From Gammaproteobacteria bacterium (GTDB lineage Bacteria > Pseudomonadota > Gammaproteobacteria > Chromatiales > Chromatiaceae), in assembly GCA_011390365.1 (NCBI GenBank), contig JAABSM010000038.1:1-35187 (forward strand): DNA of 35,187 bases, read 5' to 3'. The notes beneath the pieces are model-generated. The model made no database searches, was not told where the DNA came from, and saw nothing but the letters and a program-made list of their open reading frames with translations. Position 1 is the first letter of the stretch; each line of letters begins with the position of its first letter. The position numbers and the translations under genes were made by a program. Shown here piece after piece: positions 1 through 34,501 of this stretch.

Positions 1-40
1 ACCCACGAAATGAGGCGCATCATTCCCGGAGAATGCCACG

Positions 41-400
41 ATGGCTTATCTTAATGACGTTGACTGCGCCCCCATCATCCGCTGGCTGCGGAACGTCCAA
101 CCCGAGGTGGCCGCACCGTGCATCCTCGAAAGCGGCGCTGAAATCGCCGACGGTGATAGTCTGCTGCAAGAACTCCACGACGCCTGGCTGCCGCGACTCC
201 TGGACGAACCGCAACCCGAGGCCCTGGCCGCCATCGGTCGCGCTTTGGGCCTCCTGGGGCTGGATGATCGCAAGGGGATTGGCCTCACCGCCGACGTTCC
301 GCCGGACATCGATTGGGCCAAGATCCCAGCCAGCGAATTGCCCTGGTTGCCAAGCGCCGCTTGGCAACCCGGTCTTGGATGCGCCGCATCCCGGGTCTGA
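41..400 (+). pseudogene. Fragment of a STAND/NACHT-FGE (SUMF1-like) protein, cut off by a hairpin array
   Basis: The frame encodes 119 residues. Residues 1 to about 85 look like the helical stretch that precedes the formylglycine-generating-enzyme-like (FGE) domain in NACHT/STAND-FGE proteins. The entry motif is visible as RKGIGL, then PPDIDWAKIP at about residues 87-96. The nSTAND gene on the opposite strand has the parallel RPGVGV...PDILWCAIP, which supports the assignment. FGE homology stops just after this point. From base 345 the frame only translates hairpins (WLPSAAWQPGLGC) and ends at 400, so the roughly 200-residue FGE domain is missing. The frame is open back to a stop at 11-13, and the N-terminal ATPase part is absent or lies outside the window. 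GGAG at 28-31 could serve the ATG. I read this as an internal remnant, not a working gene; a short uncharacterised protein cannot be excluded. Confidence 0.5.
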
Positions 401-580
401 CCGCGACGCGGTCAAGACCGCATTCCCATGTGACACAGGGGAACGAGGCAACTATGCCCGGCGGGAGGGGTTATCGAGGTGGACCTGGCTTGGTGACGGC
501 TTGGCTTGGCGCAGCGCGCCGCTGCTGCATCCCCACGCGGCGCGTGGGGGACGAGCGAGCGACCGCGGTACGCGCGGTCT
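345..580. repeat. Hairpin array 1: composite palindromic element with 3-nt loops
   Basis: This is a run of short perfect hairpins. At 345-369 the arms GGTTGCCAAGC and GCTTGGCAACC enclose loop GCC. At 370-420 an outer stem CGGTCTT/AAGACCG encloses GGATGC-GCC-GCATCC (377-391) and GACCGC-GAC-GCGGTC (399-413). At 420-448 a module opens with GCATTCCCA and ends GGGAACGAGG. At 511-525 GCAGCG-CGC-CGCTGC follows. At 527-556 a second GCATCCCCA...GGGACGAGC module contains CCCCACGC-GGC-GCGTGGGG. At 561-579 GACCGCG and CGCGGTC flank five bases. The same module order recurs at 11.58-11.71 kb. The array lies between two convergent FGE-type genes and terminates one of them. Confidence 0.85.
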
Positions 581-624
581 CAGTGGGTCAGAGGACCAGC
601 GGCCAGAGACCTGCAATTCAGCGG

Positions 625-2778
625 TCAGAATGGGGGGGGTACACATAACACCCGAAACCCTAGATGGTCCCTGAGGTAAGGTGCGCTCTGGTCGCGGGTT
701 CCGGCATGCGCGAAATCCAGAGGGTAGCTCCAAGAGCCGCCGCGGACCGCGCGCATATCACCGGCCCTCCCCTTTAAGCCGCGTGGGTTCCCATGCTTGT
801 TACGGCACCACTCTCGAACATTGCCGATAAGATCGTAGACCCCTTGCTCATTCCTCCCACCGGGATATACGCCGACGTCTGTGGTTCGCCCGATCCCTTC
901 CTTTTTTGTGTTGGCAACTTCCTCCCTCCAGTCTTCTCCCCAGGGGTAGTCGAACCCGGCTTGGGCGCTCTGGGCCGCCCACTGCCGCTCCCATTCGTCG
1001 GGTAGTCGCACCTCATGGCCCAGCCGCTGACTGAGCCAGCGACAGAAGGCGGTGGCGTCGTACCAGGAGACGTAGTCCGCCGGATAGCTGGCGTAGCGCC
1101 GCAACTGCGCGCCCGGTTCCTCTTCGTGCTTGAGATCCTTCCACCAGGCCCCGCTGTGGTATCCCTCCTTATCATCCAGGAAGGCCCGGTATTGGGCATA
1201 GGTCACCGGGTAGGCGGCCAAATAAAATGGTGCCACCTTGAAGGTCCCATGCTCTTCAATCTCGACGCTGCCCCCGGGGATCGCACACCACAGTATATCC
1301 GGAACACCGTCGATAACTCCCACGCCAGGCCTCGAGCAGCCCTCACTAATTTCCGATAGGCGCATTCCGATCCTTTCACGCCGGTCATGATCGGTTCCAC
1401 TGCAAAGCAGTTTGGCAAGCATCAGCTCCGCTTCCGGCACCAGGAAGTCGGCGAGTTCCGGATCCTGTTCCAGATCACCGAGCAGATTGGCCTCGTACAA
1501 CAGGTCACGGGCTGGCTGGAGCCGTTCATGCCCCCAGTGCCTATAATCCGGGTGACCCTGCTCCACCCAGACGCGGCACTCTTCCTGAATCAGGTCCCGC
1601 AGGCGCAGCGCCGCCTGACAGTCCCCGATCCAGTCTCGCAGTACATCCCACTCCCTGAGCAGGGCCTCGTGGGCCACCTCCAGGGTAGCGCCACGGTCCG
1701 AATCGCTGTTCTCTCTGGCGATCACCAACAGGCGGGTATCGCGGTCGGTGAACGCGTCGATCAGGCATAGAGCCGCCGGGTCATTGGTCCAGGCCTCCAG
1801 AAGTTCACGGCGGCGGGTCGCCGTGTCATCGGCCTGCACCGTCACCAGCCTTGAGAAGACCCGCGGCAGGGCCGCCCGCCCCTCATCCCCCGCCTGCTCC
1901 AGGGCGGCATCGGCGCGGCGCTTGAGCACCCCCTTCAGGCCGCCCACTTTTTCGTGGCGATAGGCGGCCAGGTCCATGGTGGTGCGCCGTTGCTCGGCGC
2001 AAAAGCTGTAGAGATCCTTCAGCGCGAAGGCGAGCAGGGCGAGGCCGCCGGGCTCATTGAGCGCCTCGGTGACCAGTCGGGCCTCCAGCTCGGGATCCAG
2101 CTCCATCGGGGTTGCCAGGTCGAGTTCCTGGACCGGGCCGGTGATCATGCGGGAGAGGGCCTGGGGGCCTGGCGCGGGCAGCCCGTAGTGGCCGCCGTTG
2201 TTCTGGATCTCGCTCAGGCCCGGGTGGGCCACGCACTGGTCCAGGAAGTCGGAACGGATGGTGGCGATGATGCGAAATCGGGGTTGCTCCGACGCCTCCA
2301 GCAGCAGATCCAGGAAGGGTTCCCGGTGTTGCTCGCAGGCCGGGGTGAAGAGCTCTTCCATTTGATCGAGGATCAGCAGCCACTCCCCATGGGGCGGCAA
2401 TTTTTCATGAACCCGTCGCAGCAGATCCGGGAAGGCCGCCGCGCCATCCCGCAGCTTGTCGGCCTCCTGCTCCAATCTCCACAGGTCAAAGCGCCGCTCC
2501 CGGTCCCTGCCGAGGCTGTTGGCGAGTGCAAGGAAGGGATCCTTGCCCGGGACCATGTCGGTGATCAGCCAATCCCCGCTGTTCGGCAGTCTCGACGCCC
2601 GCCCCTCTTCCAGGGCGGGCCAGACCCCGGCTCGCACCAGCGAGGACTTGCCAGAGCCGGATGCCCCGGTGACCAGCAGAAACCGCTCGCCCTGCTCGCT
2701 GGAGAGCCGCCGCAGCAAGGCGCGGGTCTCGGCGCTGCGGCCGAAGAAGATGGGCGCATCCGAGCGGCTGAAGGCCAT
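625..2778 (-). CDS. nSTAND NTPase with C-terminal FGE-sulfatase domain, N-terminally truncated
   Basis: The product is 717 residues from the first available ATG. The N-terminal part is an nSTAND-type P-loop NTPase: FFGR at 11-14, Walker A GASGSGKSS at 38-46, and Walker B LLILDQMEELF at about 134-144. The last roughly 230 residues form an FGE/SUMF1-like domain, entered by RPGVGV...PDILWCAIP, with NVREWC, AVRGGSW and a terminal LGFRVLC. Such proteins are sensor/effector-type STAND ATPases, often antiviral. The family's usual domain opening (PYPGL before AFSRSDAP) is encoded just upstream of the ATG, in a frame that runs back to a TGA at 2863-2865 with no ATG, GTG or TTG. The natural start and any effector domain (for example TIR, protease or kinase) are therefore missing. 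An 8-C run lies just before the stop codon. I am sure of the domain assignment but doubtful that the gene is functional. Confidence 0.8.
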   Translation of the reverse strand: MAFSRSDAPIFFGRSAETRALLRRLSSEQGERFLLVTGASGSGKSSLVRAGVWPALEEGRASRLPNSGDWLITDMVPGKDPFLALANSLGRDRERRFDLWRLEQEADKLRDGAAAFPDLLRRVHEKLPPHGEWLLILDQMEELFTPACEQHREPFLDLLLEASEQPRFRIIATIRSDFLDQCVAHPGLSEIQNNGGHYGLPAPGPQALSRMITGPVQELDLATPMELDPELEARLVTEALNEPGGLALLAFALKDLYSFCAEQRRTTMDLAAYRHEKVGGLKGVLKRRADAALEQAGDEGRAALPRVFSRLVTVQADDTATRRRELLEAWTNDPAALCLIDAFTDRDTRLLVIARENSDSDRGATLEVAHEALLREWDVLRDWIGDCQAALRLRDLIQEECRVWVEQGHPDYRHWGHERLQPARDLLYEANLLGDLEQDPELADFLVPEAELMLAKLLCSGTDHDRRERIGMRLSEISEGCSRPGVGVIDGVPDILWCAIPGGSVEIEEHGTFKVAPFYLAAYPVTYAQYRAFLDDKEGYHSGAWWKDLKHEEEPGAQLRRYASYPADYVSWYDATAFCRWLSQRLGHEVRLPDEWERQWAAQSAQAGFDYPWGEDWREEVANTKKEGIGRTTDVGVYPGGRNEQGVYDLIGNVREWCRNKHGNPRGLKGRAGDMRAVRGGSWSYPLDFAHAGTRDQSAPYLRDHLGFRVLCVPPPF

Positions 2779-3158
2779 CAGGCCCGGGTAGGGCGGCCCC
2801 GTCCAACGTGGTGTGTCAGAGGAACCGGGTGTGAAGGCATGATCACCTGGATGTACTGCATATCAACTCGAATGCTCCCCAACTGCCATCGGTGCCGATG
2901 CTGACCGTTCGATCGGCACTCGATCTGTGATCATCTCGGATCACCCGGTCGGAACGTTTGGATATACAGCGGGTTATGGGAATAATCCGCATGGGTGGGG
3001 AGGCAAAGGCAGCGGTCGCGGGTGCGACCGGCGATAGGAGTGGCGGTCCTTGAAGGAGTGCCGCTTCTTCGGTCGATTCATTTTCCGGGGGGTGGCGAAC
3101 CACTCCATGATCGTTAGTCCGGGACATTGCGTCCTGAGCGGCGGTCCGGGGTCTCGCC
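2779..3158. other. Gene-free stretch upstream of the nSTAND gene
   Basis: No convincing coding frame is seen. The 2779-2862 part continues the nSTAND frame without a start codon. Two small palindromes are visible: CATCGG-TG-CCGATG at 2887-2900, and GTGATC/GATCAC around six bases at 2927-2944. No terminator, promoter or homologue of an effector domain could be recognised. Confidence 0.5.
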
Positions 3159-3989
3159 CTATTGCGGGTTGGCGCTTGCCTCTTCCATGGGGGGGACCAG
3201 CAGTCCGGGGTCGATGCGTGCCTCGCGCAGGTTCATGCGCCAGTCGAGGTGGGCGCCGGTTACCCGTCCGGTGGCGCCGACTTCGGCGATGATGTCTCCC
3301 TTTTTGACGATGTCGCCCTCCTTGACCAGGATCTTGTCCAGGTGCAGGAAGCTGGAACTGAGCTTGTGGCCGTGGTCGAGGATGAGGGTGCCGCCGGAGA
3401 AGAACATGTCGTCATGGACGAGGGTGACGACGCCGTCGGCGGGGGCGAGCACGGGGGCGCCGGTGGCGGCGGCGATGTCGATGCCGTAGTGGGGGCGGCG
3501 GGGTTCGCCGTTGAGGATGCGCTGGCTGCCGTAGACGCCGGTGATGGGGCCGAGCACCGGCCATTGCCAGCCACTGAGGAAGTCGGTGCGGGGGGCGTCG
3601 ATGGCGCGGGCCTTTTTGGTGGCGGCGATGTCGGCGCGGATGCGGCGCAGGTCCTCTTCGCCGCGGGGGGTGACCTTGGCGGGGGGCAGGCCGTCGATGC
3701 GCTGGATCGGATAGTCTCGCTTGGCGATGTCGAGCACCCGCTGTTCGGTGACGCCGTTGGGTTTGGTGATCCTGAGGCGGGCGCTGTCGTCCTGGTCGCG
3801 GTGAAAGCCGATGACGAAGTAGCCCTCGGCGGAGACGCGGATGGATTCGCCGTCGACGCTGACCCGGCTGCCGGGGTCGGTCTGGCCGATCAGCATGCCG
3901 CCTTGGACCATCTCGCCCTGGAGGGTGGTTGCGGCGACCGGAGGCAGGGTGCAGAGGGAGAGGAGCAGCAGCAGGGTTCTGTAGAGCAT
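3159..3989 (-). CDS. M23 family metallopeptidase (LytM domain)
   Basis: This 276-residue protein has a signal peptide (hydrophobic residues 5-20, likely cut after PVAA) and is probably a periplasmic zinc peptidase or regulator acting on peptidoglycan crosslinks. After a beta-rich N-terminal region and a short charged helix (about 108-130), the LytM domain covers about 140-265. The metal motif HYGID gives H167 and D171. The second motif reads AHLDW (H247, D249) where many M23 enzymes have HLH; the HLDW form is, to my knowledge, common in one gammaproteobacterial subgroup, so activity is plausible but not certain. The gene is last in a same-strand block with a lipoprotein, a TgpA-like transglutaminase and a DUF58 protein, 63 bp after the lipoprotein gene. 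No terminator is evident downstream. Confidence 0.88.
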   Translation of the reverse strand: MLYRTLLLLLSLCTLPPVAATTLQGEMVQGGMLIGQTDPGSRVSVDGESIRVSAEGYFVIGFHRDQDDSARLRITKPNGVTEQRVLDIAKRDYPIQRIDGLPPAKVTPRGEEDLRRIRADIAATKKARAIDAPRTDFLSGWQWPVLGPITGVYGSQRILNGEPRRPHYGIDIAAATGAPVLAPADGVVTLVHDDMFFSGGTLILDHGHKLSSSFLHLDKILVKEGDIVKKGDIIAEVGATGRVTGAHLDWRMNLREARIDPGLLVPPMEEASANPQ

Positions 3990-4052
3990 GGGTTCACCAG
4001 TCGGGATTGAACGAAGCGAATGGGCGGGCGTGGTAAGGCATCGGCGTGGATA

Positions 4053-4757
4053 TCAGAAGCCCGGGACGTATCCGTAGAGGGCGCTGAGGTGGTGGAGGAG
4101 GGCGTGGCGACCGTAGCCATGCCAGTCTTGGGTGATCTGGTCCTCTACGCGCCGATAGTGTTGGGCGAGGGCGTTGAGGTTGTCTTCGGGCGGGGGCAGG
4201 TCGCGGTGGTGCTGTTCGACCTGCCCCAGCCAGAAGCGGCTGAGGCCGTGGATGAAGTAGGGCCAGGAGCGCTGGATGCGTTCGGGCCACATGGGGTCGC
4301 TGGTGGAGGCCATCCATTTTCCATTGTCACGGCCGTAGGGTTTGCAGCGAAAGGTTTCCACCACGTTGGCTTCGAGCAGTCGTTGCAGCATCGGCGAGGC
4401 CTCCAGCCTTTGGCACCAGTGACTCGCCGTTCGATCGCTGACCAGGAACAGGAAGCTGAAGCCGTGGCCGGCGTGGTCGCGGGCCGCGCGGCGGTGAAAG
4501 CGCCACAGATAGGGTTCGGTTTCACTGCGCAGCAGTGGTGCGACGACCTGGTGGGCGATGAGGGTATCGGTGGAGAGGTCGACCGCTTCCCCTTCCGGCC
4601 AGGCGATGCGAAAGCGGGCGCGATACCAGCGCATGCTGGGTTCGGCGTGCTGGGGCAGCTGGCTGGCGCCAAGGGGCAGGTGCTTGGGGCGCGGCGAGGC
4701 GCAGCCGGCAAGCCACAGGATCAGGAGGGCCAGCACCAATAGGGTTCGCGGGTTCAT
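4053..4757 (-). CDS. Predicted lipoprotein of unknown function in the TgpA/DUF58 block
   Basis: The product is 234 residues. The N-terminus is a lipoprotein signal, with a hydrophobic stretch ending in lipobox LAGC (Cys at about residue 18), so the mature protein should be anchored in a membrane facing the periplasm. The rest is soluble and rich in Trp, His and Arg; I do not recognise a family. The ATG at 4757 was chosen because it overlaps the TGA of the transglutaminase gene as ATGA, implying translational coupling; the frame extends further upstream but only inside the transglutaminase gene. Position between TgpA-like and M23 proteins suggests a role in envelope maintenance, which is inference from neighbours only. 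Confidence 0.75.
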   Translation of the reverse strand: MNPRTLLVLALLILWLAGCASPRPKHLPLGASQLPQHAEPSMRWYRARFRIAWPEGEAVDLSTDTLIAHQVVAPLLRSETEPYLWRFHRRAARDHAGHGFSFLFLVSDRTASHWCQRLEASPMLQRLLEANVVETFRCKPYGRDNGKWMASTSDPMWPERIQRSWPYFIHGLSRFWLGQVEQHHRDLPPPEDNLNALAQHYRRVEDQITQDWHGYGRHALLHHLSALYGYVPGF

Positions 4758-6715
4758 GAGGGAAACTCCCGGATCGACTGCTTCAGTTCGTCGAGGTGTT
4801 GTTGTGTCGTCTCGCGGCCGCCATAGCGCAGGGCGATGTATTGATCGGCGATGCGCTTTGCGGATTGCGCCTTGTCGGGGTAGTGGTTGGCGATACGCTG
4901 GGCGTAGTCGCGCGGGCCTTCCCCGGGGGCGCGGGGGAGTTCGCGAAGTTGCGATAGTGCGCAAAAGCGGTCGTAAAGGCGACGCTCGGGGTCGACGGCG
5001 GTGCGGTTGCGGCGGGCCATGTGCCATGCCAGCAGCGCGAGCAGCGCCAGCGGCAGTATCGCGGAGAGCATCATCAGGCCGCTGTGCTTGATGAAGTCAA
5101 GCCCGAGATTGTAGAGCAGCAGGGTCTGGCTGGAGTTGTTGTAGGAGATGATCCAGAGCTCCCAGCGGGCATTGATGGCGTCGGCAAGGAGGTTGACGCG
5201 GTGCATGAAGTCGAGCGTGCCGGCGCCGCCCTCGCGAAAGGCGATCTCTTCGCCAGGGTTGAGGAGGTCGTAGTCGATGCTGCGCTGGATGCGGCTGGGT
5301 GCGACCGCGGCGGTGGGGTCGATACGGGTCCAGCCCTGGTCGTCCAGCCAGACCTCGGTCCAGGCGTGGGCGTCGGATTGGCGCACGATCAGATAGTCGC
5401 CCAGGGTGTTGAATTCACCGCCCTGGTAGCCGGCGACGATGCGGGTCGGTATGTCGGCGATGCGCATCAGGGTAGCGAAGGCGGCGGCGTAATGTTCACA
5501 AAAGCCGCGCCGGGTCTCGAACAGAAACTGGTCGGTGGGATTTTGCCGCAGCAACGGGGGTTCCAGGGTGTAGTAGAAGGGTTGCTCGCGAAAGTAGCCG
5601 AGCGCCCGCTCGATGACCTGGCGGGGGTCGCTGGCGCCGTGTTGCCACTCGGCTACCAGTTCGCGCATGCGCGGGGTGACGTTTTCGGGGAGTTGCAGTC
5701 CCAGCTCCCAGCCGCGGGCGGTCAGGTCCTCCATGCGATAGGTGGTGTGGGACACCATCTCATAGCGTTTGCGCGAGTGGATCTGATGGTGACTGATGAG
5801 CTGAAAATCGTGGGTCAGGGTCGCGTCCGGGATGGGGCCGGCGGGTAGGTCGAGCGCCAGCAGGCGGCGACTGCGGGTGGGTTCGAGGATGATCTGGTAG
5901 GAGACGGGCTCGCTCTCCGGGATGACGTCGGGCGGGCCGCGCCAGTCATTTTGGACGCCGCTCCAGGTGCGACCGTCGCTCTGCCACATCACCGGGCCGC
6001 GCCAATAGCGCTGTTCCGGTGGCGGCGGCGGGCCGTCGAACATGGCGCGAAAGGCGATCTCCCGGGACTGAACCAGGCGATCGAAGCTGCCGGGGGAGAG
6101 CTGATCGGAGAGCCCGCTCTGGGCGGTGGAGTCGAGGCGCATGCTCCATAGCGGGCCGTCGAGGCGGGGGAACACCACAAACAGGATTGCCATGATCGGA
6201 ATAGATTGGAGCAGCATGGCGCCGGAGACGCGCAGGGCGTCGCGGTCGGTCGTGCGCTGCACCTGATTGACGGATACCAGTAACGCGGTCAGCCCCCACA
6301 CCACCGCCAGCAGATAGAGGGTGAGCAGGATGGTCTGGCTGAACAGGAATTGGGTGATGATCAGGAAATAGGTCAGAAACAGGGTCAGGTAAAGGTCGCG
6401 CCGGGTCTGCAATTCCATGGTCTTGAGACCCAGCATCAGGGTCAGCAGCGCGCCGCCCGCGATATGGCCGGCGATACTGCCATAGTTGAGGTAGACGACG
6501 GCGAAGCCGGCCAACGCGAGCAGCACCTTGAGCCAGCGACGGGGCATGCCGAGCCCCTTCTGACTCAGCCACAGGCGAATCGCGAGCATGATGAAGAAGG
6601 CGATCATGACCGCCATGGCCAGGTTGTTGAAGTGGGGCAGGGCGGCGGCCCCCAGCAGCAGGGTCAGGCGGCTGATCTGGGATTGGGGGAGGTCGCTGTC
6701 GAGTAATTGGCGCAT
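4754..6715 (-). CDS. TgpA-like membrane transglutaminase (DUF3488 + transglutaminase core)
   Basis: This 653-residue protein matches the usual TgpA layout. About five or six hydrophobic segments occupy residues 15-185 (DUF3488). A periplasmic region follows, then a transglutaminase-like core with GFCEHYAAAF (C406), SDAHAWTEVWL (H450) and TRIDPTAA (D466), the expected Cys-His-Asp triad. One more membrane segment lies near 550-570, before a cytoplasmic tail. In Pseudomonas TgpA is essential and has periplasmic transglutaminase activity; the substrate is unclear. The gene starts 9 bp after the DUF58 gene and overlaps the lipoprotein gene by ATGA, so it is surely cotranscribed. The MoxR-type AAA ATPase that normally opens such operons is absent here. 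Confidence 0.9.
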   Translation of the reverse strand: MRQLLDSDLPQSQISRLTLLLGAAALPHFNNLAMAVMIAFFIMLAIRLWLSQKGLGMPRRWLKVLLALAGFAVVYLNYGSIAGHIAGGALLTLMLGLKTMELQTRRDLYLTLFLTYFLIITQFLFSQTILLTLYLLAVVWGLTALLVSVNQVQRTTDRDALRVSGAMLLQSIPIMAILFVVFPRLDGPLWSMRLDSTAQSGLSDQLSPGSFDRLVQSREIAFRAMFDGPPPPPEQRYWRGPVMWQSDGRTWSGVQNDWRGPPDVIPESEPVSYQIILEPTRSRRLLALDLPAGPIPDATLTHDFQLISHHQIHSRKRYEMVSHTTYRMEDLTARGWELGLQLPENVTPRMRELVAEWQHGASDPRQVIERALGYFREQPFYYTLEPPLLRQNPTDQFLFETRRGFCEHYAAAFATLMRIADIPTRIVAGYQGGEFNTLGDYLIVRQSDAHAWTEVWLDDQGWTRIDPTAAVAPSRIQRSIDYDLLNPGEEIAFREGGAGTLDFMHRVNLLADAINARWELWIISYNNSSQTLLLYNLGLDFIKHSGLMMLSAILPLALLALLAWHMARRNRTAVDPERRLYDRFCALSQLRELPRAPGEGPRDYAQRIANHYPDKAQSAKRIADQYIALRYGGRETTQQHLDELKQSIREFPS

Positions 6716-6724
6716 GGTCGTTGT

Positions 6725-7711
6725 TCAGAAGCGGGCAAGGGCCGCCAGACAGGCGTGCTTGTGTTTTTCACCATGGGATTCGGCAATATGCACGCCGGGA
6801 AGTTTCAGGGCATAGTGCTGCTGCTGGCTATCGGCCAATAATACGAAGCGACACAACAGGGAGAGCCGGGTCTCGGTGTCGATGCCGGGCAGCAGCTCCC
6901 AGTCGAGGGCGATGCGGCGGGTCTGGTCGCCGCCGAACTCCTTGCTCACCAGACCCCGCTCGCGCGCCAGCGCCTTCCAGTCGATCTGCTTCAGGGAGTC
7001 GCCGGCGCGGTAGGGGCGCAGGCCGAGGAAGTCGTCGACGCCATGTCCCTTGCCGCCGGATTCGTTACCGCCGGGGACCTCCTGTTCCGGCGGATCGCCG
7101 ATTGGCGCGGGGGTCGGGTAGACCAGGCATTCGATGCCGGTGTCGACATAGCCCCAGGCGCGAAACAGGCCCAGCGGGTAGAGGGTGGAGAGGGTGATGC
7201 GTCCGGGACGGAAGACCCCCCTGCGGCGCGCCCCGGCATGCAGGAAGAGTCGCGCCGAGTCATTGGCGGGAACATCCTCGACCATGCCGGCGGCCTCGGG
7301 GGCGTCGGCGCGGATGGCCTGGCGCGGGCGTTTGCCGCGGTTATCCAGATAGAGGGGGAAGCACGCCTCCTGGCCGACGAAGACCGGCTCGGCGCGCCCG
7401 CCATGCACCGCCAGGCCGAGCAGGTTGCGCCAGGTGTGGACCATGGCGACCAGACCCAGGCCGGTGAGCAGGAAGGTCAGCATGTAGCCCAGATTGTTCT
7501 GATAGTTGATGGAGCCGATCAGCATCAGCAACAGGCAGCCGGCGTAGACCAGGCCGTAGCGGGTGGGCAGGATATAGACCCGGCGATGGCCGAGCACCGC
7601 CGGGTCGCCGCGCAGCCGCGGTGTCGGCATGCGGGCGCGCAGCCAGGCGCTTGCTCTGGCGCCGAGGCTGGCGAATGGGGTATCGGGTGTGATGGGATTC
7701 GTAGCTTTCAT
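6725..7711 (-). CDS. DUF58 domain-containing protein
   Basis: This 328-residue protein has two hydrophobic segments near residues 55-100. The DUF58 signature follows, GLRPYRAGDSLKQIDW and KALARERGLVSKEF, at about 230-260. DUF58 proteins occur in MoxR/DUF58/transglutaminase operons, where the ATPase is thought to act as a chaperone on a VWA- or DUF58-type partner; the biochemical role is not settled. It is the first gene of the minus-strand envelope block and is followed 9 bp later by the TgpA-like gene. No strong Shine-Dalgarno sequence stands before the ATG. The gene upstream is divergent, so moxR is not adjacent and, if present, lies elsewhere. Confidence 0.88.
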   Translation of the reverse strand: MKATNPITPDTPFASLGARASAWLRARMPTPRLRGDPAVLGHRRVYILPTRYGLVYAGCLLLMLIGSINYQNNLGYMLTFLLTGLGLVAMVHTWRNLLGLAVHGGRAEPVFVGQEACFPLYLDNRGKRPRQAIRADAPEAAGMVEDVPANDSARLFLHAGARRRGVFRPGRITLSTLYPLGLFRAWGYVDTGIECLVYPTPAPIGDPPEQEVPGGNESGGKGHGVDDFLGLRPYRAGDSLKQIDWKALARERGLVSKEFGGDQTRRIALDWELLPGIDTETRLSLLCRFVLLADSQQQHYALKLPGVHIAESHGEKHKHACLAALARF

Positions 7712-7955
7712 GATCCGGGTTAAAGGAATGCTCCAAAGCGATGCGCGTCATCGCGGATGGCCCATTGTTCCGTGCTATAGTGTCAAGTGCAAGGGTTGTG
7801 GCGCGTTGGTGAGATTCCATCCCCTTTTGTGGATACCGCCGACGGACGGAAAATGAAAAATGTGAGGAAAGAAGTGGGTAAAGATTGCGCGCATTCCGCA
7901 TTGGCGGGATTGCGGCATATCGTTACTTTGAATAGTGATGAAAGGAGGTGTGGAG

Positions 7956-8495
7956 ATGAAATCCGACGAATCGAAGAGCACGCTGGAGCGTCTGGCCGAG
8001 GCCTATGATCGCATGTTGCAACGGGTGGACGAGGCGATGGATCGGGCGGAACACGCCGCCTCCGACAACTTCGGCAAGGCGGTGGACTATGCCCGGGAGA
8101 AGTCGGTGGAGTTCGAGGAGCTGAGTCGCGAGGAGGCGGATCGGATCAGCGAGTATCTGCGTCGGGATGTCAACGACGCCGCCCGCTACCTTGCCGACAC
8201 CGGCGAAGAGTTTCGTCAGTGGTTGCGCCTGGACATCCAGCTGATCGAGAGCCGGCTGTTCGAGGCCTTCGCCTCGGTCGCGGACAAGACCCGGGTCGAG
8301 CTGGATCAGTGGGCGGAGGCGGCGCGCCAGGCCTCGGTCTACCGTACCGGCGAGATGACCGGGCCGGGCGCGCTGATGTGCGAGGCCTGCGGCAAGGCGC
8401 TCCACTTCCACAAGGCCGGCCATATTCCGCCCTGTCCCGCTTGCGGCAATACCCGCTTTCGCCGCGAGGAGGACGATCATCAGGCGGATGAGTGA
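7956..8495 (+). CDS. Zinc-ribbon protein, DUF1451 (YbeL-like)
   Basis: The product is 179 residues. The N-terminal 140 residues are highly charged and helical, probably coiled coil. The C-terminus is a zinc ribbon with paired cysteines CEAC and CPAC separated by the basic KALHFHKAGHIPP segment. This is the DUF1451 arrangement (E. coli YbeL); the function is unknown. The start at 7956 is set by a very strong Shine-Dalgarno sequence, AAGGAGGTG at 7942-7950; an in-frame ATG 21 bp upstream has no such site. The gene is divergent from the DUF58 block. A repeat hairpin just after the stop could end transcription. Confidence 0.85.
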   Translation: MKSDESKSTLERLAEAYDRMLQRVDEAMDRAEHAASDNFGKAVDYAREKSVEFEELSREEADRISEYLRRDVNDAARYLADTGEEFRQWLRLDIQLIESRLFEAFASVADKTRVELDQWAEAARQASVYRTGEMTGPGALMCEACGKALHFHKAGHIPPCPACGNTRFRREEDDHQADE

Positions 8496-8529
8496 GATGG
8501 CGTCTGGGTATCCGAGGGAGCGCCGCAAA

Positions 8530-8567
8530 GGCCCTTCTCCCCGCGGGAGAGGGGTGAGGGGGAGGGC
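8530..8567. repeat. Palindromic repeat (CTCCC-CGC-GGGAG core) after the zinc-ribbon gene
   Basis: A hairpin with arms TTCTCCC and GGGAGAG around CGC is followed by a G-rich tail (GTGAGGGGGAG). Repeats of this look are scattered in spacers of many proteobacteria. It could act as a transcript end but lacks a T run. Confidence 0.5.
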
Positions 8568-8600
8568 GCAAAGTGAAACACGGCAGGCCCCCGGATCCAT

Positions 8601-8637
8601 CGCCCCCGTTCGCGAAGGGGGGGCGGGGGGGATCTTC
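8601..8637 (+). repeat. Degenerate copy of the CCCCC-TTCGCRAA-GGGGG repeat family
   Basis: CCCCCGTTCGCGAAGGGGG is followed by GGCGGGGGGATCTTCG. The layout is the same as the copies near 30.17, 30.60 and 30.75 kb (C run, TTCGCRAA, G run, GGGGGGATT, TTCGAA). It lies immediately upstream of the VanZ-like gene, and the open frame that includes it translates it as PPFAKGG, a typical artefact of this repeat. Confidence 0.65.
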
Positions 8638-8644
8638 GGGACCG

Positions 8645-9919
8645 ATGGATAGCCCGTCCCCGCCACGCTCGGCGCTGACCGGCAGCGGCCTGCTGCTAGC
8701 TGCGGTGGTGTTGCTCGCGCTGGCGCTGCCCCTCTCCTGGCATCAACCCTACCAGCGCGTCGGCGGCGATCTTCTCGCGGCGGTCGAGGCGCAGTATCAG
8801 TTTGCCTCCGGGAGCGGCGTGGTTGGCGATTTCGAGCAACTCTTTCGGCGTTTTGGCGATACCCGGGAAGACGGCGTCGCCTGGCTCTCCCTCGCCCCGG
8901 GCGAGCGGATTCGCGGCTATCTGCCCGGTCCCTTCGCGGCGGGACATGTGATGGTCTCGGTGCGGGTCGCGGCCCAGGGACTGGAGCGGGGGGAGCTCTC
9001 CTGGACCGATGGGCGGGTCGGACTGGTGGGGATCGATGAAGGGGGGCGTCGCCTGTACGATGCCGCCAGCGTGGTGTGCGGCGTGCATGGCGATCATCCC
9101 GCGAGCGAGTGCCGCACCATCCTGGCGCTGCCGGATGAGGCCCGTGAGGCGCTGCTGGTGCTCGGCCACTGGGGGCGTAGCGGCGAGATGCGCGTGGCGC
9201 GGCCCGAGCTGTGGTCGGTGCGCACGACGCCAGTCGCCGATGGCCTCTACCTGCTGGCGGCGGCGCTATGGTTGGCGCTGGCGCTGGCGCTTGCCCGTCG
9301 CTTTCTGGGGCGTCCCCTGCACATTCTGATCTATCTGCTGTTGGTGGTGGTTGTCATTCACACGATGTTGCCGATGGAGCGGTTCAAGCCGCTGTTGGTC
9401 GATCTGCGCGCCGGGCTGATACAGGCGGCGGATGAGCTGGAGGCGGCGCGGGCGCTCCCGGGTGGCGATGAGGCCGGTGATGAGGTTGGCAAGGAGACGA
9501 CGGCAAAGGTCGCCGATCTGTCCCAGGGTGAAGACCCTCCCGCCAACGGCCCCAGCGAGAAACGCGCAGCACCTCCGGTGGCAAACCCGGAGCGAGAGGC
9601 GCTGGTCGACTGGGGCGTAAATCAGTTGCAGAAGTGGGGGCACCTGGCCGCTTTCGCCCTGTTGGGGGCGCTGGTGACCGCGGCATGGTATCGCCAGGGC
9701 ACCGGCGGCTGGCCCGGATTGGCGGTGAAGCTGGGCTGGCTGGTCTGGTTCGCCGCCGCGACCGAGGTCACCCAACTGGCGATACCGACCCGCAGCGGCG
9801 CCCTGGCGGATTTTGTGCTTGATATTAGTGGTATTGTCTTGGGCGTGGTGCTGATCGTGCCGTTGCTGTTGCTGGCAACGGTGGCCGGACGTGTGTTGAA
9901 ATTCGGTCATCCGGGTTGA
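8645..9919 (+). CDS. VanZ-like family membrane protein
   Basis: The product is 424 residues from the chosen start. A membrane segment lies at about residues 13-32. A large extracytoplasmic region (35-195) follows, then two segments near 200-245, a charged linker rich in Glu, Ala and Pro, and a C-terminal VanZ-like module with three hydrophobic stretches carrying QKWGHLAAFALLGAL and EVTQLAIPTRSGALADF. VanZ itself lowers teicoplanin susceptibility; most VanZ-like proteins have no assigned role. I prefer the ATG at 8645 over the ATG at 8573 because the extra 24 residues are translation of a repeat. The extracytoplasmic domain is unusual for a simple VanZ protein and may sense envelope components. 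Confidence 0.75.
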   Translation: MDSPSPPRSALTGSGLLLAAVVLLALALPLSWHQPYQRVGGDLLAAVEAQYQFASGSGVVGDFEQLFRRFGDTREDGVAWLSLAPGERIRGYLPGPFAAGHVMVSVRVAAQGLERGELSWTDGRVGLVGIDEGGRRLYDAASVVCGVHGDHPASECRTILALPDEAREALLVLGHWGRSGEMRVARPELWSVRTTPVADGLYLLAAALWLALALALARRFLGRPLHILIYLLLVVVVIHTMLPMERFKPLLVDLRAGLIQAADELEAARALPGGDEAGDEVGKETTAKVADLSQGEDPPANGPSEKRAAPPVANPEREALVDWGVNQLQKWGHLAAFALLGALVTAAWYRQGTGGWPGLAVKLGWLVWFAAATEVTQLAIPTRSGALADFVLDISGIVLGVVLIVPLLLLATVAGRVLKFGHPG

Positions 9920-10026
9920 TCAACGCACTCTCGCCCAAACCTAGAGCCTGGAAGTTGTCCTGTCCGCGGCTGTCTGAATAGCGGCCCGCGGGCCTTCACG
10001 AACCCATCGTCTGGAGCAAAATCATC

Positions 10027-10641
10027 ATGAAGGTCGCCATCGTCAGCGGTAGTCATCGCCAGCCCTCCCAAAGCATCAAGGTCGCGAAGTTGATCCGGCG
10101 GCGCATCGGCGAACGCTTCGCTGGCGCCCAGGCCGAGATCATCGACCTGGGCGGCAATCCCTATCCGTTGTGGGATCAGGGCATCTGGGATGGGGATCCG
10201 GCCTGGACGGAGCGATTGGCGGAACCCAAGCGTATCCTGAACGAAAGCGATGCGCTGGTGGTGGTGAGCCCCGAATGGCATGGCCAGGTCCCGTCAGGGC
10301 TTAAGAACTTCTTCCTGCTGTTCGGCCCCAAGGAGCTTGGGCACAAGCCGGGGATGATCGTTACCCTGTCCGCCAGCGAGGGCGGCAGTTATCCGGTCGC
10401 CGAGTTGCGCATGAGCAGCTACAAGAACAACCGACTCTGTTACATCCCCGAGCATGTGATCATCAAGCATGTGGAGTCGGTGCTCAACGATGACCCCGCC
10501 CAGAACGACGCGGAGCGGGATACCTATCTGCGCGGGCGTATCGACTGGACCCTGGGGATACTCAACGAGTACGCCAAGGCGTTGCGGCCGGTGCGGGAGA
10601 GCGGCGTCACCGCCTCGCCCGACTTCCCCTTCGGCATGTGA
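10027..10641 (+). CDS. NAD(P)H-dependent FMN reductase family protein
   Basis: This 204-residue protein has a flavodoxin-like fold. It opens with MKVAIVSGSHR, the phosphate-binding loop of the family, and has SPEWHGQVPSGLKNFF at about residues 79-94, the flavin-binding and dimer region. Members reduce FMN, quinones, azo dyes or chromate; the substrate cannot be deduced. The length is slightly above the usual 180-190 residues because of a C-terminal extension. Its stop codon lies 17 bp before the next gene, suggesting cotranscription. Weak GGAGC precedes the start. Confidence 0.85.
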   Translation: MKVAIVSGSHRQPSQSIKVAKLIRRRIGERFAGAQAEIIDLGGNPYPLWDQGIWDGDPAWTERLAEPKRILNESDALVVVSPEWHGQVPSGLKNFFLLFGPKELGHKPGMIVTLSASEGGSYPVAELRMSSYKNNRLCYIPEHVIIKHVESVLNDDPAQNDAERDTYLRGRIDWTLGILNEYAKALRPVRESGVTASPDFPFGM

Positions 10642-10658
10642 AGCAAGCAAGGTTTTCC

Positions 10659-11438
10659 ATGTTCGACTGGTTCAGCAAAAAGCCGCTCTTCGACGACGCG
10701 ACCACCGACTGGATGTTCGAGGTCTTTCGCTGGGCGCTGGAAAATCTAGAACGGGAGGTCTTTTACGCCCACACCCAGTTGGTGCTGCCGGATGACGGCT
10801 TTTTCCCCGGTCGCGCCGGAAACCCCCAGGAGATGGCCGAGCTGGTCTTCGGGCGGGTGCGGGAATACGCCGGCATGAGCCACTGGCCCTGTCAGGTCTT
10901 CAATGCCTCGGCGGTGCGGCCCATGCCGGTGCAGCGGGAGATGTCCGGACCCTTGCGCTTGCCCGGTCAGCATCCGCCGGCCCAAGGGGCCGCGCCGCTG
11001 CCGATCCTCTATGACCCGACCCTGGTCAACAACCCGGAGGCGTTGATCGGCGCTTTCGCCCAGACCCTCGCCTGGCATCTCACCGGCCAGCTGACGATCC
11101 CCGGCGGCGAAGAGAATCGCCCCCATGCGGCGGAACTGGTGGCGGTCTTCCTCGGCTTCGGCCTGATGATGGCCAACAGCGCCTACCTCGCCCCCAAACG
11201 CTCCTGCGGCAGCTGCGGCGGCCCCAGCGCGACCCGCCAGAGCTTCCTCTCTCAGTACCACATGACCTATGCCCTCGCCATCTTCTGCGTATTGAAAGAG
11301 ATCCCGGCGCGCCAGCCGCTACCCTTTCTCAAGTCGCCGCTGCGCGGCCACTTCAAGCGCGCCATGAAAGAGGTGGCGAGGGATGAAGGGCGGCTGGGAT
11401 CGTTGCGCGGTGGAGCCGTTAGACCGCAGCCGGCATAA
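10659..11438 (+). CDS. Conserved-looking protein of unknown function with CGSCGG motif
   Basis: The product is 259 residues and not a family I recognise. It starts MFDWFSKK, has a helical acidic N-terminal half, a proline-rich middle (about 105-125) and a hydrophobic helix (FLGFGLMMANSAYLA) followed directly by KRSCGSCGG, which could bind a metal. The last 60 residues are basic. No signal peptide is evident. The ATG at 10659 was preferred over a GTG at 10638 because AAGG precedes it at a reasonable distance and the GTG overlaps the previous stop. The preceding gene encodes a flavin reductase, so a redox or metal role is possible but unproven. Confidence 0.65.
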   Translation: MFDWFSKKPLFDDATTDWMFEVFRWALENLEREVFYAHTQLVLPDDGFFPGRAGNPQEMAELVFGRVREYAGMSHWPCQVFNASAVRPMPVQREMSGPLRLPGQHPPAQGAAPLPILYDPTLVNNPEALIGAFAQTLAWHLTGQLTIPGGEENRPHAAELVAVFLGFGLMMANSAYLAPKRSCGSCGGPSATRQSFLSQYHMTYALAIFCVLKEIPARQPLPFLKSPLRGHFKRAMKEVARDEGRLGSLRGGAVRPQPA

Positions 11439-11576
11439 GGACTCTCACGGAGGCACGGAGATCACGGAGGGGGGCTTCGGCGGCCTCAGCCGTAGGGTGC
11501 GTTAGGCGCGCTTCCCCCATGGTTTCGGTTGTCCGCCAGACTTTGCGCGCGCCGTAACGCACCATGGCGGGATTAT
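11439..11576. repeat. Mosaic of two repeat families after the CGSCGG gene
   Basis: At 11446-11470 stands a CACGGAG-type repeat (three CACGGAG units), relatives of which occur at about 15616-15647 and 25094-25126. At 11496-11563 an inverted repeat has arms GGTGCGTTAGGCGCG and CGCGCCGTAACGCACC, with a single extra G, around about 37 bases. Neither encodes protein. Together with the hairpin array that follows they fill most of the gap before recB. Confidence 0.7.
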
Positions 11577-11577
11577 G

Positions 11578-11706
11578 GCTCGTTCCCAAGGTCTCCTTGG
11601 GAATGCAGGTCTTGCTAGCTCTTGCCTGCCTTCCGGCTATTCGGGTAGCTACAGCTGCCAAGACTGGAGCCCCCAAGCACTGGAGCCCCCCCCAAGCGGG
11701 AGCTTG
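11578..11706 (-). repeat. Hairpin array 2, inverted copy of the array-1 composite
   Basis: Read on the minus strand, the module order equals array 1. A CAAGC-TCCC-GCTTG hairpin (11693-11706) comes first. A junction with outer stem GTCTTG/CAAGAC continued by TAGCT/AGCTG (11609-11620 with 11653-11664) follows. Last is GCATTCCCA...GGGAACGAGC (11606-11578) with internal perfect arms TTCCCAAGG and CCTTGGGAA around three bases. The junction text AAGACC(T)GCATTCCCA is shared with array 1. Two direct CTGGAGCCCCC units (11664-11674, 11680-11690) are extra. Bases 11707-11895 hold no gene that I can see. Confidence 0.8.
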
Positions 11707-11895
11707 AGGACTCGCCAATCTATTCGTAATCAGCCTGACAAGCCGGGTGGCAAGGAGCGGACCCGACCACCACCACAGTCCACCAGTCAATCGACGCCAA
11801 GCAGTACCGTACCCAAGTTACCCTGTCGTCCCAATCTGGCTGGGTAATTTCCCCGCATAGTGGCGACACGACTCGGGGATCAACGCCTCGCGCCC

Positions 11896-34200: not shown

Positions 34201-34207
34201 CAATCCT

Positions 34208-34256
34208 CGTAACACCGCTCCAGCGGTGTTACGCATCCCTCGGCGCTCCCGCGCCG
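34208..34256. repeat. Hairpin repeat A (direct partner of repeat B)
   Basis: A 12-bp perfect stem CGTAACACCGCT/AGCGGTGTTACG with two bases at the tip (34208-34233) is followed by GCATCCCT and a CGGCGC-TCCC-GCGCCG hairpin (34241-34256). Bases 34217-34255 match 34844-34882 at 38 of 39 positions. The CTCCAG tip and GCATCCC link tie it to the arrays at 0.35-0.58 and 11.58-11.71 kb. Confidence 0.85.
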
Positions 34257-34501
34257 CGTTCGATGAGCTGACTAAACCCTAAGCGTTGAATATCTTCAGC
34301 TGGTGTCGGGGCGTCTTCCCGAAGCGGAAAATCAGGAAAACGTCCAGCCAACTCAATGCAGCCTTCCGGCCATCCGTTCTGAGCCGCATACTTGCGGATG
34401 ATTTGTTCCACCCAACGACTTTGGGAGACCCCTTGGGCAGCAGCGGCTTGTTCGACCAAAGCTTGGGTGGCTTCATCAAGTTTTAGCGTGATTTGAGACA
34501 C
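34229..34501 (-). CDS. CopG-type ribbon-helix-helix antitoxin, orphan
   Basis: The product is 90 residues with a GTG start chosen because AAGGAG lies 7 bp upstream; the frame extends further but without homology. The N-terminal strand SQITLKLDEATQ and helices to about 45 (VSQSRWVEQIIRKYA) are of RHH antitoxins, and AGRFPDFPLRED is a tail segment known in that family. The usual partner is a PIN (VapC) toxin encoded directly downstream. Here the reading frame runs into hairpin repeat A (last residues ERGAGAPRDA) and no toxin follows, so the pair appears broken. Confidence 0.78.
   Translation of the reverse strand: MSQITLKLDEATQALVEQAAAAQGVSQSRWVEQIIRKYAAQNGWPEGCIELAGRFPDFPLREDAPTPAEDIQRLGFSQLIERGAGAPRDA

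Follow-up and report, generated by a model that had tools for sequence, protein, structure and literature searches.

A 35,187-nt contig of a Gammaproteobacteria bacterium from the Chromatiaceae (JAABSM010000038.1, assembly GCA_011390365.1; this whole stretch is called the window below) holds two arrays of hairpins on opposite strands, at 343..447 and 11579..11714. Are they one structured element kept twice, or copies of something that moves? An earlier interpretation based on the letters alone (the sequence-only reading) had described a composite element present twice in inverted orientation, with fixed module order and with pairing preserved by selection on structure or by a mobility mechanism acting on hairpins. 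Both arrays are real. They are, however, two members of a dispersed family that belong to different subfamilies, and they are therefore not an inverted pair of duplicates. The family most probably consists of non-autonomous dispersed repeats that resemble REPINs, inverted doublets of repetitive extragenic palindromes (REPs), with a further hairpin pair nested inside; its copies decay and are partly carried by a miniature inverted-repeat transposable element (MITE).

A quasi-palindromic unit of four hairpins

The unit is a quasi-palindrome of ~105–120 nt, in which an outer inverted pair of REPs (hairpins H1 and H4) surrounds an inner inverted pair (H2 and H3). H1 is an inverted relative of H4, and H2 of H3. 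In the window's own genome and in some others, the inner pair is closed by GTCTT/AAGAC. The outer REPs bear their heads, mostly CTGG and CTCG, on the outside and their tails, CCA and GCA, on the inside.

The modules and their order, as the sequence-only reading had given them, were confirmed at both arrays. Copy 1 (343..447, + strand) is a class I copy of a GC-rich subfamily and scored 56.8 bits on the + strand and 54.4 bits on the − strand with R1, a covariance model built from 12 class II copies. The CTGG head of its H1 lies at 343-346, and the hairpin itself (345-355/359-369) has an 11-bp stem around the 3-nt loop GCC. The closed junction GTCTT...AAGAC (372..418), found by pattern match, encloses H2 (377-382/386-391) and H3 (399-404/408-413); its outer stem is formed by 372-376/414-418 and reaches 8 bp when CGGTCTTG/CAAGACCG are counted in. 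H4 (420..447, hairpin at 423-443), likewise matched by pattern, is inverted relative to H1 and ends in CGAG. The stems of H1, H2 and H3 are perfect, and H4 contains mismatches.

Copy 2 (11579..11714, − strand) is a decayed class II copy that scored 83.9 bits on the − strand and 55.8 bits on the + strand. Its modules follow the same order, with a junction GTCTTG...CAAGAC at 11609..11664 and a perfect, pattern-matched H4 at 11579..11606 (TTCCCAAGG/CCTTGGGAA, loop AGA, end CGAG). H2 (11644-11659) has one mismatch, H3 is broken, and the H1 region (11665..11714) has been rearranged into CAAGCTCCCGCTTGGGG plus a partial repeat.

We compared the fold of each sequence with those of 200 shuffles, on both strands and as both DNA and RNA. 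Copy 1 beat 200/200 shuffles on both strands as single-stranded DNA (z −5.8 and −5.9) and as RNA (z −3.9 and −6.1). The fold of copy 2 was not significant either as DNA (z −1.5 and −1.9; 15 and 10 of 200 shuffles equally good) or as RNA (z −1.8 and −1.2), and one intact class II copy gave a DNA fold of z −9.9. Preserved pairing thus holds for copy 1 but, given the non-significant fold of copy 2, does not extend to the whole of that copy.

The family extends well beyond the window. With 150 of 2850 first-look candidates scored in the own genome, R1 returned 123 rows at E <= 1; merging overlapping rows by hand left a little over 50 sites at E <= 0.001 among the same candidates, and the two window arrays are two of these. 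E-values went down to 2.6e-20 in the own genome, where the strongest copies are part of the model, and to 1e-19 in a relative (G003) that had no part in it. The H4 pattern GCATTCCCA..GGGAACGAG occurred at 20 exact sites in the own genome versus 0 for the reversed control, and the junction pattern GTCTTG..CAAGAC at 32 places versus 1 in the control. Apart from a few chance matches, these 32 places belong to one or other of two main classes of sequence.

Module order was examined by starting from H4 alone, at 23 distinct sites from two H4 patterns with identical contexts merged. A perfect stem of at least 6 bp ended 6–9 nt upstream of H4 at 20/23 sites, several of which are MITE copies and so not independent, versus 1/23 just downstream; such a stem was present at 68/2000 random positions. 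Of the three sites that depart from this, one is copy 2, another lies in apparent coding sequence, and the third has a shorter stem. A random order of modules is thus refuted in the own genome. The unit is also symmetrical: R1, although a one-strand model, matched the opposite strand as well at 56 of the 66 places in the own genome (any place that appeared in two overlapping loci was counted once) and at 45 of 48 sites from other genomes.

In other genomes, the loop read from its own head started with TC in 23/24 left and 24/24 right REPs. The end pairs of these 24 units were CTCG/CTGG in 15, CTCG/CTCG in 5 and others in 4, and exact CTGG/CTCG ends were present in 18/37 own copies and 23/36 G003 copies. 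That the unit is discrete is supported by G003, where two different left flanks both meet it within ~3 bases before CTGG.

Stem variation and spread among genomes

We compared arm pairing within and between copies. Across 66 own copies, pairing per helix was 0.88–0.98 within copies versus 0.72–0.79 between copies and was higher within copies in all five helices (H3, 0.978 vs 0.751; H4, 0.940 vs 0.779), in an alignment that was fitted to the structure and biased towards it, and with a shuffle that did not preserve relatedness. Distinct fully paired arm sets among the own copies numbered 17 for H1, 6 for the outer stem, 11 for H2, 9 for H3 and 16 for H4. In 48 copies from other genomes, the values were 0.84–0.98 within versus 0.72–0.92 between copies, again higher within copies in all five helices. 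Together with the polarity of H4, this supports genome-wide the earlier claim of a fixed order with variable but paired stems.

A structure-independent alignment was made for 26 of 42 G003 sites, the other 16 being truncated, rearranged or of another subfamily. In these 26 copies, 88.2% of 961 cells were paired versus 87.0% after shuffling (1/500 shuffles as high), and 16 cells had changed on both sides versus 6.6 after shuffling (0/500 as high). About 113 of the 961 cells (~12%) were unpaired, far above the 16 changed on both sides. Because unpaired cells so outnumber compensated ones, pairing set by the source copy and followed by neutral decay fits better than selection at each site. Between subfamilies the stem sequence changes but the frame does not, and resident copies decay. 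Compensatory change, proposed earlier as a check, was thus borne out between subfamilies, where stems change with pairing kept, but was weak inside the single G003 family. As for the two causes offered by the sequence-only reading, selection on structure at resident sites is left unsupported by the G003 cells and by the decay of copy 2, whereas the data fit a mechanism that mobilises hairpin repeats.

Copies are dispersed, and their distribution between genomes is patchy. A search of 38 genomes of relatives including the own one (E <= 0.01, 99 candidates scored per genome) found composite matches in 7, own included, and none in 31. Row counts were 88 in G003 and 83 in the own genome, and a genome of the same genus (G001, 89% complete) had 5. 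In a class-wide sample of 274 genomes, searched at E <= 1e-4 with stricter filters and 13 candidates scored per genome, relatives of the unit were present in 26, own included. We inspected the best site of 19 of the 25 other matching genomes by eye: all 19 were inverted doublets, 13 of them simple two-hairpin doublets and 6 with all four hairpins. The inner pair is therefore optional outside the own genome. Phage and plasmid collections gave no match to one composite used as query. A pattern scan of a wider contig collection returned 10 stretches, 6 of them from a metagenome-assembled genome matching G003. The other four look unrelated, as they lack the TTCCC...GGGAA hairpin of the pattern used; two Phycisphaerales matches among them share one text.

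The window also contains an isolated single REP at 34206..34235 (+ strand), covered by a weak model match (29.6 bits over 34206-34341). It keeps the head (CTCG), loop (TCCA) and tail (GCA) of the composite on a wholly different stem, GTAACACCGC/GCGGTGTTAC. Adjoining copy 1, positions 625-2778 (− strand) encode an nSTAND1 NTPase fused to an FGE-sulfatase domain. One class II copy had a sub-threshold Rfam match to mir-22 (25.7 vs 48 bits).

Known repeats, MITE carriage and companion elements

Several described repeats share features with this family. In REPINs, two REPs in inverted orientation enclose a spacer that pairs, and compensatory changes across the hairpin are common (PMC3116915). The present unit resembles them in its two inverted REPs with a spacer, its palindromic form, its compensatory changes and its dispersal: the both-strand matches place two inverted REPs in one unit, and paired, compensated stems occur in all helices, though weakly inside one family. 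It differs in that the spacer is occupied by an inner inverted pair of hairpins, the heads of the outer REPs are usually unlike (CTGG and CTCG), and no RAYT (REP-associated tyrosine transposase) gene clearly flanked by copies was found.

CGTC-tagged REPs, among them the neisserial dRS3, mostly form head-to-head dimers, have CCA tails and apparently lack a dedicated transposase (PMC3733652). The dRS3 pattern is ATTCCC(N8)GGGAAT, and the most abundant dRS3 subtype is a target of phage integration (PMC3898611). Our alignments contain the same TTCCC/GGGAA stem core and the CCA tail, the latter on the CTGG-headed REP only, and the mostly head-to-head dimers are a further likeness. In contrast to CGTC REPs, the head here is CTSG without the CGTC (TGTC, CCTC) motif, stems are 9–11 bp rather than 8–9 bp, and the available text of PMC3733652 does not mention a nested inner pair. 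GTAG-tagged REPs of RAYT REPtrons are short tagged palindromes in inverted pairs (PMC3733652, PMC2817692). Short tagged inverted palindromes and RAYT-family genes are both present in the genomes studied here, but the GTAG tag is absent, heads being mostly CTGG/CTCG, and the RAYT loci examined lack clear flanking copies.

Inverted REP doublets are thus already known, and the nested inner pair is an added variant, as far as these sources go. The suggestion that the module rule could be new stands for that pair, which was not found in them, but not for inverted doublets with compensatory changes (PMC3116915) or tagged dimers (PMC3733652). Neither the nested pair nor the difference between CTGG and CTCG heads nor the TC loop was found in the literature searched, as far as its accessible text goes, which does not prove their absence from print; a search with sequence strings gave nothing relevant among the papers listed.

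Part of the composite is also found inside a bacterial MITE. In the own genome, a ~153-bp element carries the class I junction together with H4 (H2-H3-H4) and has 8 two-ended copies. Its ends are imperfect 25-bp inverted repeats (19/25 identical) whose pattern had 32 own-genome matches versus 0 in the control, and 6 of the 8 two-ended copies have perfect 8-bp target duplications. Several copies are inserted in another dispersed repeat, at a position rich in TTAA, and empty copies of that repeat exist. The same ends also bound a second subtype with a different core that lacks the composite; the composite piece was therefore probably captured by the MITE. Only some composite copies lie inside such elements, which sets the family apart from bacterial MITEs. 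The window copies do not: the end pattern had no match on the window's contig (C101), and inspection revealed no target duplication at either copy. The earlier note had proposed to look for a source transposase; what was found, in part, is a source transposon, a MITE with terminal inverted repeats and 8-bp duplications that carries some modules but not the window copies. No autonomous partner was present among the 32 end matches.

Other repeats accompany the family. A ~70-nt dispersed repeat (..CCCACGAAATGAGGCGCATCATTCCCGGAGAATGCCATGGTGGCTTAAGTTAATGACATTG), in several cases the MITE target, lies at window positions 1-64 and has 15 distinct contexts in the fetched own loci (L022, L032, L036, L039, L040, L048, L138, L140, L145, L147, L183, L188). 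Many G003 copies (L097-L136) lie inside a longer, mosaic repeat whose end repeats, CCTAGTRC...CGGAAAC, are imperfect. REPs are known targets of insertion sequences (PMC1525189). An insertion element that starts near GTCGGGATAGAAATACGGCG occurs on contigs G000:C165, C103, C56 (junction GCATT^), C105 and C156 (junction CTCGTT^) of the own genome, in loci L049, L041, L034, L056 and L054. It abuts the REP at TT^CCC, the foot of H4, in three left-side junctions, in two MITE subvariants, and in one right-side junction; at C156 it is joined to CTCGTT. The last of its six matches (C66, L055) follows CCCCCGTT. The element seems to target REPs; contig ends cut off its interior, and it had no Rfam match.

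Weighing the explanations

The favoured account is that of REPIN-like, non-autonomous repeats. As one strand, the composite can fold into four hairpins; in class II copies, a single long central arm can take the place of H2 and H3. Pairing would be enforced when a source copy moves, through recognition of the hairpins in single-stranded or cruciform DNA, so that no function at each resident site would be needed to explain it. The MITE with 25-bp ends carries the H2-H3-H4 part to further sites, and a RAYT might be the present or past enzyme of the free-standing copies.

A number of observations weigh against this account. The source copies of R1 have CTGG...CGAG ends, and the model thereby favours that end pair. 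The TC-first loop is looser in the own genome (14 left and 25 right of 37 copies) and in G003 (18 left and 18 right of 36), where many of the non-TC REPs have either GC/CC loops or hairpins so weak that they could not be placed. Covariation is weak inside the one amplified family of G003. In place of H2 and H3, one central arm is favoured when RNAalifold is run on a mixed alignment, and an intact class II copy also takes this form in its minimum-energy fold. The enzyme is a further difficulty. The two composite-rich genomes show one weak Y1_Tnp (PF01797) match each (21.1 and 28.4 bits), while strong matches occur without any composite in G004, G005, G009, G011, G012 and G021, and some match is present in four composite-poor genomes (G001, G008, G016 and G019). 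Scanning 17 Y1_Tnp loci gave a single, weak composite-like match (19.5 bits, E 0.03); this degenerate composite starts one base from the ORF (open reading frame) of an own RAYT piece, and RAYT homology extends 27 bases into it. For free-standing copies, neither an excision intermediate nor an orthologous empty site was seen. In the look for such a site at copy 2, the flanking gene was found in 8/22 relatives, and the two that were read have different neighbours and so offered no comparison.

The negative Y1_Tnp results are soft. The NCBIfam RAYT model gave a G003 protein 93.2 bits (cut-off 80) where PF01797 gave 28, indicating that PF01797 under-detects RAYTs here, and a first reading of "no RAYT link" drawn from PF01797 was withdrawn on this ground. 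Three own-genome pieces scored 25–29 bits with the NCBIfam model, below its cut-off. On contig G000:C124 (L246:2924-3728 and 3742-3993), two decayed RAYT-family genes, one split and one truncated, stand side by side. Another composite match (23.9 bits) lies ~0.9 kb from the own RAYT piece, and the match nearest to the G003 protein is ~5.7 kb away; wider stretches around two RAYT loci held one clear and four weak matches. The RAYT loci examined have no clear flanking composite copies. With tblastn over the fetched loci, further short RAYT-like pieces appeared near own composites or MITEs (L037, L023 and L201), but these loci were fetched for holding such repeats, so this nearness proves nothing. 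That the mover of the free-standing copies is or was a RAYT is accordingly suggested here only tentatively.

Could the composite instead be a structured RNA or DNA element of the host, such as a terminator, an mRNA stabiliser or a protein-binding cruciform, with pairing selected at each site? The strong DNA folds of copy 1 and of the intact class II copy, the compensatory differences between subfamilies and the position of copy 2 between convergent ORFs would all suit such an element. Against it stand the patchy occurrence between close genera and the excess of unpaired over doubly changed cells in G003 (~12% of 961 versus 16). Nor is a gene-orientation preference clear: by crude ORF calls for 37 own and 36 G003 copies (shorter, MITE and overlapping matches left out), these 73 comprised 12 convergent, 6 divergent and 34 same-strand positions, 19 on an ORF call and 2 at edges, compared with 31 convergent, 33 divergent and 129 same-strand adjacent ORF pairs. 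The only Rfam family reaching its gathering score in the window was a tRNA. We consider a host element unlikely.

It is still less likely that the composite spreads only as cargo of a DDE-type MITE, free copies being MITE remnants without ends. The MITE copies with 8-bp duplications do hold H2-H3-H4, and many G003 copies share long flanks with imperfect end repeats; yet at the position of the MITE's left end, free own copies, those of the window included, have an H1 region, the end pattern is missing from the window's contig, and units with the same ends as the composite recur in genomes outside this family. Since the MITE ends also bound a composite-free subtype, the simpler sequence of events is that the MITE captured the composite piece. 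The wide stem differences between copies might suggest unrelated hairpins, alike because G+C-rich palindromes are common. That reading is refuted by the counts and has next to no probability left: the 20 exact H4 sites compare with 0 for the reversed control, the R1 E-values hold in G003 as well as in the own genome with its model copies, and base composition predicts ~4e-11 four-part patterns per window, for a pattern chosen post hoc.

The REPIN-like account may also have a stronger form, which we regard as conceivable though doubtful. The family could be a separate class of heterodimeric, two-level REPIN, in which two usually different outer REPs (CTGG and CTCG heads) share a TC-first loop and surround a second inverted REP pair that can be gained or lost. 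Its mover, acting with fixed polarity, would not be a classical RAYT, and the unit would repeatedly become the core of other small transposons.

The mover of CGTC REPs is described as an open question in PMC3733652. The nested design, strong polarity and orientation-coded loop of the present units provide a concrete recognition code to be sought in the enzyme that moves REPs without a GTAG tag. A REP piece captured by a MITE with clean target duplications would, in turn, be one way in which such hairpins spread without a REP-specific transposase.

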